From Candidatus Solibacter sp. (GTDB taxonomy: Bacteria > Acidobacteriota > Terriglobia > Bryobacterales > Bryobacteraceae): DNA of 52,220 bases. The stretch is from assembly GCA_025361425.1 (NCBI GenBank), contig JANYAH010000110.1, forward strand, positions 1-52,220. Reading direction: 5' to 3'. The stretch's first letter is position 1. Each line of letters begins with the position of its first letter. The notes under the pieces were generated by a model that did no database searches, was not told where the DNA came from, and saw only the letters and a list, made by a program, of their open reading frames with translations. This document shows, one piece after another, positions 776 to 9,425 of the stretch. The position numbers and the translations under genes were made by a program.

Positions 776-1558
776 ATGTCCGACAAATTAACCATCGCGG
801 GGCGCGAATTCTGCTCGCGGCTCATCGTGGGAACGGGGAAGTACCGCAGTTTTCAAGAGATGATGCGTTGCCACGAGGCCAGCGGCGCCGATATGGTGAC
901 CGTGGCTGTGCGCCGCGTCAATCTAACGGACCGCACCAAGGAATCGCTGATCGATTACATCGACCGTACGAAGATTTTCATCCTGCCGAATACGGCCGGG
1001 TGCTACACCGCCGACGACGCGGTGCGTGCGGCCATGCTGGGGCGCGAAGTCGGCCTGTCCAACTGGGTGAAACTGGAAGTGATCGGCGACGAGAAGACGC
1101 TGTTCCCGGATAATGCCGGACTGCTCGAAGCCACCCGGATCCTGGTCAAAGAGGGCTTTGTGGTTCTCCCGTATACCAACGACGACGTGGTCAACGCGCG
1201 CCGCCTGATCGATGCGGGGGCGGCCGCGGTGATGCCGCTGGCGGCGCCCATCGGAAGCGGGCTTGGCATACAGAATCCGGTAAATCTGCGCATTTTCCGC
1301 GAGATGATCACCGAAGTCCCGATGATTGTGGACGCCGGCGTGGGCACGGCCAGCGATGCCGCAATCGCCATGGAACTGGGCGCCGACGGAGTACTGATGA
1401 ACACCGCGATCGCGGTGGCGGACGATGCGGTCAAGATGGCCCGCGCCATGAAACTGGGCGTGGAGGCCGGCAGGCTGGCGTGGGAATCGGGCCGCATGCC
1501 GAGGAAGCTCTATGCGTCGGCGAGCAGTCCGCTGACTGGTGTGGTGGGGTCGTCGTAG
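776..1558 (+). CDS. thiG: Thiazole synthase ThiG
   Basis: ThiG builds the thiazole phosphate ring of thiamine from 1-deoxy-D-xylulose 5-phosphate, dehydroglycine and the ThiS thiocarboxylate. The 260-residue protein has the usual length. Visible motifs are LIVGTGKY at residues 17-23, the Schiff-base lysine K99 in SNWVKLEV, the acidic residue E101 just after it, the phosphate-binding region PLAAPIGSG (154-162) and IVDAGVG with D186. No thiS or thiF lies next to it; the MoaD/ThiS-like gene at 16557 belongs to a different operon, so the ThiS partner is presumably elsewhere. The start is supported by an immediately upstream TACAAT box rather than a ribosome binding site. Confidence 0.96.
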
Positions 1559-2720: not shown

Positions 2721-5700
2721 CTACCCGTGCAGCAGGCGATAGATCTGCGCGCCATACTTCTCCACCGTTCCAATCCCCAGGCCGGGGATGCCGAGCAGTT
2801 CCGCCGCGGTGGCCGGGCGCCGCGCCGCCACGGCTTTCAGCGTCTGGTCGCTGAAGATGCGGAAGGCGGGGACCCCGCGGCGTTTGGCCTCCGCCAGGCG
2901 CCATTGGCGCAGCTTGTCTTCCACCTGCGAATCGGGCGCAAGCTTCGGCCGGTCCGCCGGGCGAGGCGGCGCTGGTGTGGCCACCGCGGCCGGCTTCCGC
3001 GACCGCTTGCGCTTGGCCGGCGCAGCCGCTTTCTTCCTGCCCTTGCGCGCTTTGGTAGCGGCCTGCGCGGCGTCCTTCATGAGCAGATCGCCCGGCACGA
3101 TTTCCTCCAGCGCCTCCCCGTCCGGTGTCAGGCTCGCCTTGCGGTAAGGGATGGTCTTGCCGTCCTTTTCAAAAACCGCGTTGGCGAGGCGGAGGAAATT
3201 GGCGCGCGCCATGGCGCCCAGAATCTCCTCGAACGCGTCGCGCGGCATCTCCCCGTGAGGGCACACTTCGGCGTGCAATTTGCCGGTTGATCGCCCGCTG
3301 CCCGAACGCAGCACAGAGATCGCCGAGAGGGCCGCCGCGCGCTCCGCATCGGTGGCGGGGCGAAAGCGCTGCCCGGAGCACTCGGCAGGGGCGCAGAAAT
3401 CGCAAATGCCGCAGGCGTTCTGCGCGTCCGCGAGGTCGCCAAAGTGGCGCACCAGGCCGGACATGCGGCACTCACTGCTCTCGGCATAACGCAGCATCAA
3501 ATTGAGCTGCTGCTGCTTCTGGTCGCCCTGCGCGATATAGGGCTCGCGCCAATGGTCGTGCCCGCGGCTCACGTTCTCGGCGAAATCCACCAGAGCGCCG
3601 CCGTGAATCCAAAGCTTCTCGAGCGCCTTGTCGAAGACCTCCGGATCCATACGCAATTGATGTTGCAGCGTCGCTTTCTCCACCGGCTCCACGCGCAGGC
3701 GCGCGAAGATGCCATCCAGCACTTTCACGGCGGGGTAATCGCGCTCGAAGAAAAAGTCGTGCGTGCGGCGGTCCGCGTAAGAGTGCATCAGGACGGTGCG
3801 GCTGGGTGCGCCGTCGCGGCCGGCGCGGCCGATCTCCTGGTAGTACGCTTCCAGGCTCCCCGGCAGGGCGGTGTGAATCACGGTGCGCACATCCGGCTTG
3901 TCGATCCCCATGCCGAAGGCGATGGTGGCCACCATCACCTGGATGCGGCCCTCCAGGAATTCCTCCTGCACGCGCTTGCGGTGGTCCCCGTCGAGCCCGG
4001 CGTGGTAGGCGGCGCAGGGGAAGTGGCAGGCAAGTTCGGCGGCCACGGATGTCGCCTGGGCCCGCGTCGGAGTATACACAATGGCCGGGCGGCGCGCCTC
4101 TTCAAGCAGCAGTTCCAGGGTGAGTGCGGCGCGCTGCGACGGCGCCACCTCCACCACTTCAATCGCCAGATTATCGCGGCGGAAGCCCTGAATGAAAAGC
4201 GCGGGCTGCACCAGCCCTAATTGCACGGCGATATCGTTTTGCACCACCGGCGTGGCGGTAGCCGTCAGGGCGATCACCGGGGCGGGCCGCAGGGTGGGCA
4301 GATACTGGCCGAGCATGCGGTAATCGGGGCGGAAATCGTGCCCCCATTGGGAAATGCAATGCGCTTCGTCGATGGCGATCAGCGACGGCTTGCGCTTGGC
4401 CAGCATTTCGGGAAAGCCGGAAACGCGCAGACGCTCCGGCGCGATGAAGAGGAACTGCAGGGAGCCGTTCAGGTAGTCGATGCAGGCCTGGCGCGAGGCG
4501 GCACGGTCGCGCCCGGAGTGTATGCGCTCCACGGCGAAGTTGCGCTCCTTGAGCTTGGCTACCTGATCTTCCATCAGAGCGATCAACGGACTGATGACCA
4601 GCGCCGTGCCGCCGCGCGCCACCGCCGGTAACTGGTAGCACAGCGACTTGCCGGCGCCGGTGGGCATGACCAGCAGGACGTCTCGGCCCGCAATGACGGA
4701 CTGGCAGACGGCTTCCTGGCTGGGGCGGAACGATGCGAATCCGAAGGCCGTTTGCAGTAGATCTGTCAGCGTTCCGCCGGTGTACACGGGGGCTGCCGCG
4801 GCAAGATGAGATTCCGTGGCGGCGGGTGCGCGCGAGGGCACTGACACGTTTCGCGGTTTCGGTGTGGAGCGCGGCGGGGCGGCATCGCGCCATCCCGTGC
4901 CATCGAGCGAGCCGATTGACCCCGACGACCACACCGCGCCGCCCTCATTCAGCCCGACTGCCGATTTCGTTGTGGGGCGGTCGCCCTCGTCCGCGGACGG
5001 CCCCCTGGCCGGCTCATCCCGAGTGGCGAGCGACTCATCTTGCGGGGAGAGAGCGGGTCCAGGGGGACCCGCGCAGACCAGGGGGTCCGCCCCATTAAGG
5101 GCGCCCCGTCCGGGCGGCGCCGAATGCCCCACCTTTCCCACCACCTCGCGCACGTAATCCTCAATACCCTTCACGAAGGGATCGAGTTGCGCCGCGCCTC
5201 GCTGGATGCGGTGCAGGTACGCTTCCCACTGGCCCGTCATGATGGGGCTCTTGACCTCCGCGTGGACCACTTCGATCAGGCGGATCCCCTTATCGGTGGC
5301 CTCCAGACTCTTGCCGTTGCGGATAATATACTCGCGCTTGAGCAGCACTTCGATGATCGACGCGCGCGTCGCCGGCGTGCCCAGCCCGGTCTCCTTCATG
5401 GCGTCCGAAAGTTCCTTTTCATCCAGCGTCTTGCCCGCCGTTTCCATGGCGGTGAGCAGAGTCCCGTCGGTGAGACGCTTGGGCGCTCGCGTCTTTTTTT
5501 TCAAAACCTCGGCGTCCAGTACGTCCTGCGGCTGGCCTTTGGCGAGGCCCGGCGGCAGAACCTGCTCGGCGCGCCTATCGTCGGCGGCCGCCGGGGCTTT
5601 CTTCGGCTTCGCCGCTGCCAGGTCCAGCACTTTCCAGCCGGTTTGCTGCACCGCGCTGCCCGAGGTGTGATAACGGTCTACCGTGGCGTCACTACGAATC

Positions 5701-7016
5701 GCCGTGATCACCGTGGTGACGCTCCAGATGTGGTCGTCATGCCAGGCGCTGAGCAGGCGGCGACAGACAAAATCGTAGATCTTGCGCTCTTCGGGAGAGA
5801 GCGAAACATTGTCGGCGGAGGTGGTGGTGGGAATAATGGCGTGGTGATCGGTCACCTTGGAATCGTCCACGTAGCGGCGTCCCAAGGGCCGCTTCCCAGT
5901 GCCGGGCGCAAGCTGCTCTCGGTAGGGCCCTTCGATCGTGCCGACCACCCGTGGCAGCGTAAGCGCGACGTCCTGCGAGAGGTGCCGGCTATCCGTGCGC
6001 GGATAGCTGATCAACTTGTGGCGTTCATATAGGGCCTGCGCGATATCCAGGGTTTTCTGCGCGCTGAAGCCGAACAGGCGGTTGGCGTGGCGCTGCAATT
6101 CGGTGAGATCGTAGAGCGCCGGTGGCGGCATACGCTGGGTCTGGGCTTCGACGGATTCGATGGCGGCCTGCCCGCTGCGCGCCCGCGCCGCGATGCGCCG
6201 CGCCTCTTCTCCATCGGCGGGCAACCGCATGGCCTGTTGCAGCGATTCCTTGTCGCCGCCAGGCACAGCGGGCGCAACGGCGCGTTCGCAAAACCACGTG
6301 CCCTGGTAGGCGCCCGCCTTCGGTGCCCCGGTGGAGCGGAAGGTGGCCATCACTTCCAGGTATTCCTCCGGGACGAACCGGCGGACGGCCAGTTCGCGCT
6401 CCACCACCATGGCGAGCGTCGGCGTCTGCACCCGGCCCACCGAGAGGACTTCGTCGTAAGCCAGCGAGTAGGCGCGCGAGAGGTTCATGCCGACCAGCCA
6501 ATCGGCGCGGCTGCGCCCGAGCGCGGCATCGGCCAGCCCATCGTAATCGGCGGCCGGACGCAGCGCGTCGAAGCCCTTGCGGATCGCCTCCGGGGTGAGC
6601 GAAGAGATCCACAGGCGGCTCACCGGTTTGGCGCATTGCGCGGCGTCGTATATATAGCGGAAAATCAGTTCGCCTTCGCGGCCCGCGTCCGTGGCGCACA
6701 CCACCCGGGAGACCTTCGGCGAGTTGAGAATCTGCTTCACAATCTCGAACTGGTCCTTGGTCTTCTCGTAGACCACCAGGGGCCATTGCTGTGGCAGCAT
6801 GGGGAGCAGGTGGCGCCGCCACTGGCGCCATTGCGGATTGATCTCGTGCGGTTGGGCCAGCGCGGCCAAGTGACCGATGGCCCAGGTGACCACGTAGCCA
6901 TTGCCGTGCAGGTACCCATTCCCTTTGCTGCCCGCGCCCAGGACGCGAGCGATGTCGCGCGCCACTGAGGGCTTTTCGGCCAGCACCGCGACACTTCCAG
7001 ATTCCGCAGCTACCAT
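2721..7016 (-). CDS. DNA topoisomerase III - RecQ helicase fusion protein
   Basis: A 1,431-residue natural fusion. Residues 1-629 are a type IA topoisomerase (TopB): Toprim residues around AEKPSVA (13-19) and DAGREGE (110-116), and the catalytic tyrosine Y338 in SYPRTDS. Residues 630-745 are a Pro/Gly/Ser-rich linker. Residues 746-1310 are RecQ: Walker A MPTGAGKS (784-791), DEAH (883-886), TATATP (918-923), the GRAGRDG motif near 1063-1069, and the RecQ-Ct zinc site (C1183, C1202, C1205, C1208). A Lys/Ala-rich spacer leads to an HRDC domain (about 1364-1431). The two activities cooperate in nature (RecQ unwinds and Topo III decatenates, as in Sgs1-Top3 and BLM-TopoIIIa), so the fusion is expected to resolve recombination and replication intermediates. 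It starts at ATG 7016, divergent from rsmG. All key catalytic residues are present. Confidence 0.95.
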   Translation of the reverse strand: MVAAESGSVAVLAEKPSVARDIARVLGAGSKGNGYLHGNGYVVTWAIGHLAALAQPHEINPQWRQWRRHLLPMLPQQWPLVVYEKTKDQFEIVKQILNSPKVSRVVCATDAGREGELIFRYIYDAAQCAKPVSRLWISSLTPEAIRKGFDALRPAADYDGLADAALGRSRADWLVGMNLSRAYSLAYDEVLSVGRVQTPTLAMVVERELAVRRFVPEEYLEVMATFRSTGAPKAGAYQGTWFCERAVAPAVPGGDKESLQQAMRLPADGEEARRIAARARSGQAAIESVEAQTQRMPPPALYDLTELQRHANRLFGFSAQKTLDIAQALYERHKLISYPRTDSRHLSQDVALTLPRVVGTIEGPYREQLAPGTGKRPLGRRYVDDSKVTDHHAIIPTTTSADNVSLSPEERKIYDFVCRRLLSAWHDDHIWSVTTVITAIRSDATVDRYHTSGSAVQQTGWKVLDLAAAKPKKAPAAADDRRAEQVLPPGLAKGQPQDVLDAEVLKKKTRAPKRLTDGTLLTAMETAGKTLDEKELSDAMKETGLGTPATRASIIEVLLKREYIIRNGKSLEATDKGIRLIEVVHAEVKSPIMTGQWEAYLHRIQRGAAQLDPFVKGIEDYVREVVGKVGHSAPPGRGALNGADPLVCAGPPGPALSPQDESLATRDEPARGPSADEGDRPTTKSAVGLNEGGAVWSSGSIGSLDGTGWRDAAPPRSTPKPRNVSVPSRAPAATESHLAAAAPVYTGGTLTDLLQTAFGFASFRPSQEAVCQSVIAGRDVLLVMPTGAGKSLCYQLPAVARGGTALVISPLIALMEDQVAKLKERNFAVERIHSGRDRAASRQACIDYLNGSLQFLFIAPERLRVSGFPEMLAKRKPSLIAIDEAHCISQWGHDFRPDYRMLGQYLPTLRPAPVIALTATATPVVQNDIAVQLGLVQPALFIQGFRRDNLAIEVVEVAPSQRAALTLELLLEEARRPAIVYTPTRAQATSVAAELACHFPCAAYHAGLDGDHRKRVQEEFLEGRIQVMVATIAFGMGIDKPDVRTVIHTALPGSLEAYYQEIGRAGRDGAPSRTVLMHSYADRRTHDFFFERDYPAVKVLDGIFARLRVEPVEKATLQHQLRMDPEVFDKALEKLWIHGGALVDFAENVSRGHDHWREPYIAQGDQKQQQLNLMLRYAESSECRMSGLVRHFGDLADAQNACGICDFCAPAECSGQRFRPATDAERAAALSAISVLRSGSGRSTGKLHAEVCPHGEMPRDAFEEILGAMARANFLRLANAVFEKDGKTIPYRKASLTPDGEALEEIVPGDLLMKDAAQAATKARKGRKKAAAPAKRKRSRKPAAVATPAPPRPADRPKLAPDSQVEDKLRQWRLAEAKRRGVPAFRIFSDQTLKAVAARRPATAAELLGIPGLGIGTVEKYGAQIYRLLHG
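5053..5091. repeat. Hairpin/direct-repeat element inside the TopB-RecQ linker
   Basis: GCGGGTCC-AGGG-GGACCCGC (5053-5072) is a perfect 8-bp stem with a 4-base loop. CCAGGGGG(A/T)CC occurs at 5059-5069 and again at 5078-5088. Such short palindromic units are typical of intergenic repeats, yet here the DNA is translated as part of the interdomain linker. Confidence 0.5.
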
Positions 7017-7065
7017 CGTCCTTCTTCAGTTTAACGGCGTCGCGGATTTGCGATCATGGGATCAC

Positions 7066-7707
7066 GTGTCCTTTGCCGATGAACTGCGCCAGCTTCTGCC
7101 CGCCGATTTGCCTTTTCGCGAGGAATGCATCGCTGGAGCGGCCCGGCATCTCGACCTGATCGTCGAGGCCAACCAGCATTTCAACCTGACCCGCATCGTG
7201 AACCCGCGTGAGGCGGCCATCAAACACGTGGTCGATTCGGTATTGCCCTGGCGTCTCTTTCAGGGCGCCGATCACGTCGCCGATGCCGGGTCTGGCGCTG
7301 GATTTCCCGGTATCCCGCTCGCCCTGGTGCTGCCCGAGACGCGCTTCACCCTGCTCGAATCCACGCAGAAGAAAGCGCGCTTCCTGGAATCGGTGGTACG
7401 GGAGCTCGCTCTGCTCCATGTCGAAGTGCGCGCCGCACGCGCCGAGGAGTGGCTGAACACGCACCGCGTGGCCATTGTCACCGCGCGCGCCGTGGCCCCG
7501 CTGAACCGCGCCGCATCGCTCTTTGCCCCGGCACTGCGCGGTGGCGCCCGCGTGCTGTTCTACAAAGGCCCGGACGCGGCTACCGAAATCGCCGAAGCCG
7601 GGCCCGAGACGGCCAAACGCCAGCTCCGCCTACGCATCGTCGAGCGCTACGAACTTCCCGACGCGCTTGGCACGCGCACCATCGTGGAAATGGCGCGCGG
7701 GAAATAG
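7066..7707 (+). CDS. rsmG: 16S rRNA (guanine(527)-N7)-methyltransferase RsmG
   Basis: RsmG uses SAM to methylate N7 of G527 in 16S rRNA (loss gives low-level streptomycin resistance in many bacteria). The SAM-binding loop is ADAGSGAGFPGIPLA, preceded by the conserved NLTRI and KHVVDSV segments, and followed by LLESTQKKARFLE. From GTG 7066 the protein has 213 residues, which fits the family (about 207 in E. coli). An in-frame TTG at 7048 is an alternative; neither start has a strong ribosome binding site. It diverges from topB-recQ with only about 50 bases between the start codons, so their promoters must overlap. Confidence 0.92.
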   Translation: MSFADELRQLLPADLPFREECIAGAARHLDLIVEANQHFNLTRIVNPREAAIKHVVDSVLPWRLFQGADHVADAGSGAGFPGIPLALVLPETRFTLLESTQKKARFLESVVRELALLHVEVRAARAEEWLNTHRVAIVTARAVAPLNRAASLFAPALRGGARVLFYKGPDAATEIAEAGPETAKRQLRLRIVERYELPDALGTRTIVEMARGK

Positions 7708-7755: not shown

Positions 7756-9425
7756 TTAGTTGCCAGTATTGTGCGCCACGACCACCGGCGCCTTGCGGGC
7801 CGGGCGAGCCGAGCGGGCCGGGCGGGCCGAAGCCGTGGTGGTCGCTTTACCGCGGCTCGTTCCCCGCCGGCGTGCCGATGCCGAAACAATTTTCTTTACC
7901 ACCGGCGCTTGCACACGCTGTACGGACGGAATCAAAAGGCGATCGCCTTCCACTGCTTGTGACGATTCCAGGCGGTTCACCGCAACGATGTTGGCGGGTG
8001 TCACCCCATAGCGCTTGCCAATGGTGGCCAGCGTCTCGCCGGCACCCACCCGATGCATGCGCCAGGCATCCAGGTGGTTGGCCGGGATGAGTTGCAGGGC
8101 AGCCACCAGCGGATTGCCGCTGCCCTTCGGAACGCGCAGTGAGAAATCCTGCGGAATCATGCCTCGCAGGCTCGCCGGATTGAGTGCCGCCAACTCGGCG
8201 AACGGCAGGTCCAGTATATCCGCGACCAAAGTGAGGCTGGTCGGGGCGGTAGTCTCCACCGTGTCGTAAACCATGGCGGATCCAGTTGGAAGCCTTCGAT
8301 GCCGTATTCGGCCGCGTTCTTTTCCATGATCGTCATGGCCAGAATGATGGGCACGTAGCTGGTGGTCTCGGCGGGCAGAACGCCGCGCGAGCGCAATTCC
8401 CAGAAATCGGCGTATCCCGTGCGCTCCACGGCCTTTTGGACCGTTCCCGGACCGCAATTGTAGGCCGCAATGGCCAGGTACCAGTCGCCGAACTCGTGAT
8501 ACAGATCGCGCAGGTGGCGGGCGGCGGCACGCGTAGCCTTCTCGGGGTCCATGCGGTCGTCCGTGTAGGCGGTCTGCTTCAAGCCATATTCATTGCCCCG
8601 CCACTTGAGGAACTGCCACATGCCGCCGGCGGCGGCGCGCGACACGGCGCGCGGGATGAACCCGGATTCCGCCTGCGCCAGGTGAATGATCTCTTGCGGT
8701 ATGCCTTCCTCATCCAGGATGCGCTGGATCATCGGCCGGTAGCGTCCCGAACGCTGCAATCCGAAGAGCAGCGTCTTGCGGCCTCGGTTGGAGAAATAAT
8801 TAATGTATCCCAACACCGCGTCATTCACCGACAGCGGCAATTGGGATGTGGTGGCCGCCACCTGTTCCCGCACCTTGTCTTTCAGTTTGGGGTCCACCGG
8901 GAAAGTCATCTGTAAAATATCTTCGAGCGGGGCTTTTTCGAACTTTCCCTGGTCCACCACGGCGCCCGCGCCCAAGTCCGCCAGATCATAGCGGTGGATG
9001 CTGTCCGCCATCTCGTCCAACTGCCGCTCAAATTGCTGCCGGTCGATCAGGCCCTGCTCGCCGGCTTCCAGCATGAGATCGATGGCGCGGTCGAATTCCT
9101 GGCGCGCGTTGGCTACATCGTTGGCTTGGTAGGCGCGCTTGCCCGCCTGGAACCGCCGGATGGCGGTCTGGATGGTGGCGTCGCCCTGTGTGCGGCGCTG
9201 TAGGGTTTGGGGGTTCGAGAGGATAATTGCGGGGATATCGGCACCCAGGTACAGGTTGTGTTGGACCGGAGGTGGTTCAGGCAGTTCCGCTGCTACGGCG
9301 CTGCGCGGCGCCCGCGGGAGGAATGACATTTGGAACTTGGACTGCTGAGTATAGCCACAACCGGAGGTGACGACGGCTACGAAGAGGAGCGAAAAAATGC
9401 AGAAAGTCTCGGTTTTAACTTCCAT
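7756..9425 (-). pseudogene. mltD: MltD-like membrane-bound lytic transglycosylase lipoprotein with LysM, interrupted by a one-base frameshift
   Basis: The gene would encode a periplasmic peptidoglycan lytic transglycosylase. It starts at ATG 9425 after a GAGG ribosome site. The N-terminus is a lipoprotein signal with C23 in VVTSGC. A helical region follows, then the SLT domain with catalytic E253 in LAQAESGF, AAGGMWQF and AAYNCGPG. Near 8273-8279 the frame breaks: the reading passes from FQLDPP into nonsense, while the next frame resumes with MVYDTVE, exactly what follows LDPP in this family. The resumed frame contains a LysM domain (RVGAGETLATIGKRYGV ... LLIP) and a basic Ala/Arg-rich tail. 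Restoring one base (a C) would give one intact protein of about 556 residues. This is either a recent mutation or a sequencing error. Confidence 0.85.

Follow-up and report, generated by a model that had tools for sequence, protein, structure and literature searches.

RecQ helicases move 3'-5' and melt DNA, and type IA topoisomerases use a tyrosine to cleave one strand and pass a second one. In human cells, a topoisomerase and a RecQ helicase are separate proteins that are brought together to untangle recombining chromosomes. The eukaryotic dissolvasomes (Sgs1-Top3-Rmi1 and BLM-TOP3A-RMI1-RMI2) combine this pair of enzyme classes as separate proteins held by binding, with RMI subunits, whereas the gene described here encodes the same pair in one chain. 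Reverse gyrases also carry an SF2 helicase-like part and a type IA topoisomerase in one polypeptide, but their helicase is not a RecQ and the two parts stand in the opposite order. Yeast Top3 and Sgs1 have been joined by engineering (Bennett and Wang 2001, as cited in PMC3905885), and the discussion of PMC3905885 likens Sgs1-Top3 to reverse gyrases, noting that both activities can share one polypeptide.

Whether bacterial topoisomerase III really partners RecQ is disputed. A 2026 study (PMC13244152) relates that E. coli RecQ modulates topoisomerase III in vitro and reports that an interaction of the two was not observed in E. coli. The joined gene suggests that topoisomerase III and RecQ also work as partners in bacteria. 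A natural, conserved and apparently once-formed fusion constitutes independent comparative evidence for this pairing, at least outside Enterobacteria, and it offers a single protein in which helicase-topoisomerase coupling could be tested directly. Both families are old; the natural single-chain architecture, its recurrence and the fused-or-absent pattern of TopB in the sampled class appear to be new. None of these three was found in the literature searched, whose coverage leaves out most subscription journals. The two families are listed under separate HMM names, so automatic annotation may name just one half of such a gene.

Architecture of the topB-recQ fusion gene

The fusion gene lies at positions 2721-7016 of the window (the whole 52,220-nucleotide stretch that was analysed) on the minus strand, as are all parts of the gene given below. 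Its start codon, ATG, is at 7016 and its stop codon ends at 2721. A ribosome-binding-site-like AAGGA, read from the sequence, is located 3 bases upstream of the ATG (7019-7023, minus strand). Residues 11-628 form a topoisomerase III core, and residues 751-1428 form a RecQ helicase that includes a zinc domain, a winged helix and HRDC. The initial annotation, which gave no strand, had placed both enzymes in one frame of 1,431 residues, and Pfam and NCBIfam matches bear this out.

In the TopB half, Pfam identified a Toprim domain (residues 10-139; 6600-6989), with E14, D110, E114 and E116 within invariant motifs, and a type IA topoisomerase core, Topoisom_bac (residues 158-615; 5172-6545), which was aligned with E. 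coli TopB. The AEKPS, TDAGREGE and YPR motifs align with those of E. coli TopB without a break and are invariant in all 39 aligned fusion rows. When this half is aligned to E. coli topoisomerase III, Y338 (codon at 6003-6005) falls on the tyrosine of the YPR motif and is the catalytic tyrosine. The likeness to bacterial topoisomerase III (TIGR01056/PRK07726) thus comprises Toprim, type IA core and YPR motif, and both family cut-offs were exceeded (for topB TIGR01056, 583.7 bits against 515.75). Among the known structures of E. coli TopB (1d6m, 1i7d), 1i7d aligned with the model of a relative (Z 32.7, rmsd 8.0 over 431 residues). The match stops close to position 599 of the 706 in the topB model: where bacterial topoisomerase III has its C-terminal tail, the fusion has the linker and the RecQ helicase. 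The description of both enzymes as complete versions therefore holds for the catalytic motifs, all of which are there, and is slightly too strong for the TopB half. With this tail lost, DNA binding may differ from that of the E. coli enzyme.

The RecQ half begins with the two RecA-like domains of the motor, both matched by Pfam: DEAD (residues 764-925; 4242-4727), with Walker A at 787-791 and DEAH at 883-886, and Helicase_C (residues 966-1069; 3810-4121), with motif VI at 1060-1069. These motifs, an aromatic-rich loop and four zinc cysteines were all found; position 890 of the loop varies (Q, M or H). In alignment with E. coli RecQ, the motor is matched end to end, followed in the fusion by about 65 additional residues ahead of the zinc domain. 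A part of these (residues ~1095-1152; 3561-3734) is predicted to contain helices and strands in winged-helix order, and from this predicted secondary structure we describe it as a winged-helix-like insert. The zinc domain RecQ_Zn_bind (residues 1165-1208; 3393-3524; Pfam) carries C1183, C1202, C1205 and C1208. It is followed by a predicted RQC-type winged helix with a long beta-hairpin (residues ~1223-1296; 3129-3350), which had no Pfam match and reached a pLDDT of ~81-92 in its blocks. A second tether, basic, rich in Ala, Lys, Arg and Pro and predicted at low confidence (residues ~1318-1358; 2943-3065), leads to the Pfam HRDC domain (residues 1365-1428; 2733-2924).

This half scored 391.6 bits with the RecQ family model TIGR00614 (cut-off 219.8) and 482.7 bits with the stricter recQ equivalog TIGR01389, below its cut-off of 640.2; it is a RecQ-family member outside the TIGR01389 equivalog. 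Its predicted structure (17 rows, mean pLDDT 83.8, pTM 0.74) aligns strongly with the E. coli RecQ core (1oyw/1oyy), giving Z 28.5 and rmsd 5.9 over 473 residues for 1oyy. Motor motifs, aromatic-rich loop, zinc domain, winged helix and HRDC are common to both proteins, whereas E. coli RecQ lacks the winged-helix-like insert and is not carried on a topoisomerase. Standalone RecQs of the fusion's subfamily were observed in family f4 and its relatives (L123-L129, L055, L056), in frames of 805-930 residues. Ahead of HRDC they appear to have a second, lengthened spacer, and no TopB remnant precedes them.

The linker between the two halves (residues 631-750; 4767-5126) is of low complexity. Across 36 distinct rows, linkers measure 22-195 residues (median 57) and are rich in Ala, Pro, Ser, Arg and Gly, with neither length nor sequence conserved. 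A stop codon or frameshift in the linker, which would have undone the reading of the initial annotation, was not present at this locus. Methionine is missing from this linker and from 25 of the 36 distinct ones, which disfavours an internal ATG start yielding RecQ alone; a start at GTG or TTG may exist.

Within the linker, a dispersed palindromic repeat of about 125 bases (4970-5094) is read in frame. At least 44 matches, itself included, were found there at E ≤ 0.01, with 40 of 135 first-look candidates scored. Inverted repeats form the two ends of the element (44 columns, 77%), which folds better than shuffled DNA (z -2.36). Near-full copies were present in 6 of 20 regions examined, and half copies in the linkers of G008 and G001. 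The element is reminiscent of the Rickettsia palindromic elements. It is also REPIN-like; its matches include L237-L256, and one copy (C252) sits in a long open frame. In a sister species (L178, G003:C1067), the linker of 158 residues lacks the palindromic element and has tandem-like SRGASVPSRDASVPSRGA repeats. Linkers in the genus thus grow by different repeats. As the linker accepts such inserts, it is presumably an unstructured tether.

Around the gene, reading of the translations by eye suggested a ThiG-like (776-1558, plus strand) and an NAD-dependent epimerase-like neighbour (1539-2684, plus), an RsmG-like one divergent from the fusion gene (within 6901-7707, plus) and a lytic-transglycosylase-like one (8157-9425, minus). 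RsmG, epimerase or ThiG was seen in just 3 of the 32 loci examined, many of which are short. Promoter and terminator scans of the locus gave results near chance.

Recurrence, distribution and descent of the fusion

Among 41 genomes compared, the present one included, TopB and RecQ are co-linear in 29 and share one open frame in 27; the fusion is thus not unique to this assembly, and further cases were found in other Acidobacteriota, Myxococcota and Bdellovibrionota bins. Within the co-linear set, the frame of G002 crosses an N-run in the linker, and those of G001 and G005 are cut by contig ends. The pair is split between two contig ends in G023 and broken beside an N-run in G026. Near-closed genomes also carry the fusion (G028, a single contig; G035; G221, on a 6.18-Mb contig). 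The window's assembly consists of 377 contigs, which might favour an assembly or frame artefact; with the same one-frame architecture in 27 of the 41 genomes, among them G028, and on the G221 contig, we regard the chance of such an artefact as negligible and reject it, as we do a frameshift.

Y338, the Toprim acids, Walker A, DEAH and all four zinc cysteines match their first description and do not vary in any of the 39 fusion rows (36 distinct), a count that leaves out the partial Myxococcota rows L039 and L044, row L209 and the later loci L262-L266. In six same-genus pairs, dN/dS was 0.09-0.14 in TopB and 0.08-0.15 in the RecQ core. Values of 0.09-0.44 were obtained in the C-terminal part and of 0.29-0.67 in the linker, whose alignments are poor. 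Purifying selection acts on both halves and is much weaker on the linker.

Scanning of the named genome contigs, with the best 80 of 593 kept, revealed at least 12 loci with both parts in one frame. These belong to Bryobacterales and other Acidobacteriota, to three Myxococcota bins and to one Bdellovibrionales bin, whose fusion lies on a 122-kb contig; two Myxococcaceae fusions, on contigs shorter than 4 kb, may be mis-binned. In a phylum sample of 149 genomes, with three candidates scored per genome, fusions were identified in G000, G045, G061, G095 and G102, and TopB occupied a separate frame of its own in family f25, G086 and G106. A further sample covered 101 genomes of the window's class. 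All seven TopB matches at E ≤ 1e-100 were fused, six of them in full fusion frames and the seventh (G204) running from TopB into RecQ where the contig ends. The other 94 genomes were without TopB at this threshold; one of them, G015, does have a fused TopB whose match falls in two pieces, and other genomes may have been missed likewise. Eight viral loci matched the RecQ part only, and no place covering 80% of the query was found among the best 5,000 plasmid records.

A set of 49 chosen genomes was examined for TopB. In all 24 Acidobacteriota fusion genomes among them, the fused TopB is the sole TopB over the cut-off, and the weaker matches are TopA-like, apart from one 243-residue fragment in G010. 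At E ≤ 1e-60, TopB was not found in any of the 14 genomes with a standalone RecQ of the fusion's subfamily. The absence of separate topB and recQ genes, raised as a check in the initial annotation, stands for the fusion's own 95%-complete assembly, where none was found, and does not extend to all relatives: further RecQs occur, for example, in G006, G007, G021, G022 and the Myxococcota genomes G189, G191, G192 and G193, and G191 has two further TopBs. All 29 first-look candidates in the fusion's own genome were scored, and the other matches were assigned to TopA, RecG, a DEAD-box RNA helicase and two large helicases of LHR and DECH type.

Separate recQ and topB genes were also observed close together. 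In a Listeria record (L275, NZ_LR134400.1) they are adjacent on one strand, 23 bases apart; like the halves of the fusion they are same-strand neighbours, but they remain separate genes in the opposite order, recQ-topB. In a Bacteroidales genome (L207, G200), the two genes share a strand and are separated by about 2.6 kb that hold a frame of 585 residues.

Trees of both halves were of a quick kind and carried long-branch warnings. In the TopB tree, the 39 fused rows all group in a single clade that excludes the remaining 14 rows (SH-aLRT 99), which suggests one fusion event. In the RecQ tree, standalone members are nested among fused ones, and a tree holding all fused RecQs together was rejected (AU p 0.0004; 36 fused rows against 20). 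For this test, short or long-branched rows (fused L039, L043, L044 and L209; standalone L061, L136 and L137) were dropped, as were the remaining distant outgroups apart from L059, L060 and L062. The result rejects the fused RecQs as a group separate from the standalone ones, and by itself cannot separate gain of the fusion from loss of TopB. Since these standalone RecQs are nested and their genomes have no TopB, the simplest history would be a single fusion after which TopB was lost repeatedly. Family f4 has standalone RecQs that branch outside and could predate the fusion, and the Myxococcota and Bdellovibrionota members, which are scattered, may have been acquired laterally. A fossil TopB ahead of standalone RecQs was sought in the upstream frame parts of 28 loci, with no TopB-like match.

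Proposed function and alternative explanations

We propose, with a probability of roughly 0.6, that the gene encodes a genuine single-chain topoisomerase III-RecQ pair, most likely clearing joint DNA molecules. From the enzyme classes joined here we infer the reaction, its coupling and its substrates, which would include D-loops, double Holliday junctions, hemicatenanes and late replication intermediates. The RecQ motor would translocate 3'-5' and melt or branch-migrate the DNA, exposing single strands. The tethered topoisomerase III would then cut one strand via Y338, pass the other strand and reseal, and the duplexes would be unlinked without crossover. A linker of 22-195 residues would keep the enzymes at 1:1 and near each other without holding them rigidly. 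An enzyme acting in this way could be called a one-chain dissolvasome, the term used in the initial annotation. The proposal draws on what the sequences show, namely the architecture, the intact catalytic residues and purifying selection in both halves, the recurrence of the fusion, the single TopB clade and a TopB found only fused in the sampled class, and further on the neighbouring Listeria genes and the in-vitro effect of E. coli RecQ on topoisomerase III. Several observations count against it: most class genomes (94 of 101) are without TopB at the threshold used, RecQ of the same subfamily also occurs without TopB, the TopB tail is lost, the joint model described below gives no confident interface, and PMC13244152 names RecG instead of RecQ as the partner in E. 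coli.

A joint model of both halves was built from 11 rows for L046, a relative whose linker is short. Both folds are recognisable (1i7d, Z 32.7; 4q48, Z 31.4); the pTM is 0.44 and the linker pLDDT is below 50, and no fixed interface is therefore claimed. A rigid two-enzyme assembly is unsupported by this model, which speaks weakly on the point given its shallow alignment.

The lack of a confident interface is also what would be expected if the fusion merely fixed co-expression and a 1:1 dosage, with both enzymes brought to the same places and no concerted reaction. An unconserved, fast-evolving linker of such variable length, into which a mobile repeat has entered in this genome, agrees with that explanation. 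An operon suffices for plain co-expression, however, as in Listeria, and co-expression does not account for a TopB that occurs only fused in the sampled class and is absent where the same RecQ stands alone; we consider a tether without coupling unlikely, while giving it appreciable weight. The single-chain pair might instead serve replication, unlinking converging forks and precatenanes at termination, a role proposed from in-vitro work for E. coli RecQ and topoisomerase III (Suski and Marians 2008, as related in PMC7614492 and PMC13244152). Both families are present in the fusion, and by sequence a replication role is inseparable from the clearing of joint molecules. No replication-linked gene context was seen, as neighbours recur in so few loci, many of them short, and we judge a replication role improbable.

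That a type IA topoisomerase and an SF2 helicase share one chain would also fit a reverse-gyrase-like enzyme introducing positive supercoils with ATP, and the protein does score 105.9 bits with TIGR01054. This score is far under the cut-off of 471.7, the helicase-then-topoisomerase order of reverse gyrase is reversed, and its zinc, winged-helix and HRDC parts mark the helicase as a true RecQ. Identity with reverse gyrase is rejected on the first two grounds, and a reverse-gyrase-like activity appears very improbable.

RecG in genomes with the fusion

PMC13244152 argues that E. coli topoisomerase III works with RecG and not with RecQ, and recG was therefore searched in 40 genomes. It was not detected in 11 of the 29 fusion genomes, against none of the 11 comparison genomes, which have a standalone RecQ and no TopB and all of which gave recG matches over or near the cut-off at full model length. 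The difference is nominally significant by genome (p 0.019) and not by genus (4 of 20 against 0 of 5; p 0.55), and for this reason it is treated as a lead and not as a result. As a speculative and rather unlikely extension, the fusion might be a bacterial dissolvasome complete in itself, independent of any RMI subunit and strong enough to replace RecG, so that lineages holding it can lose RecG. If so, TopB-RecQ would do in these bacteria what RecG and topoisomerase III are said to do in E. coli. RecG is present in the fusion's own genome and in 18 of the 29 fusion genomes. Those in which it was not detected are G028-G031, G033, G034, G039 and G040 of genus g19, the single-contig G028 among them, together with G045, G061 and G102. 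In these 11 genomes, the only recG match left scores about 350-372 bits and lies in a frame that spans some 1,100-1,300 residues, and all three such frames that were checked are Mfd.
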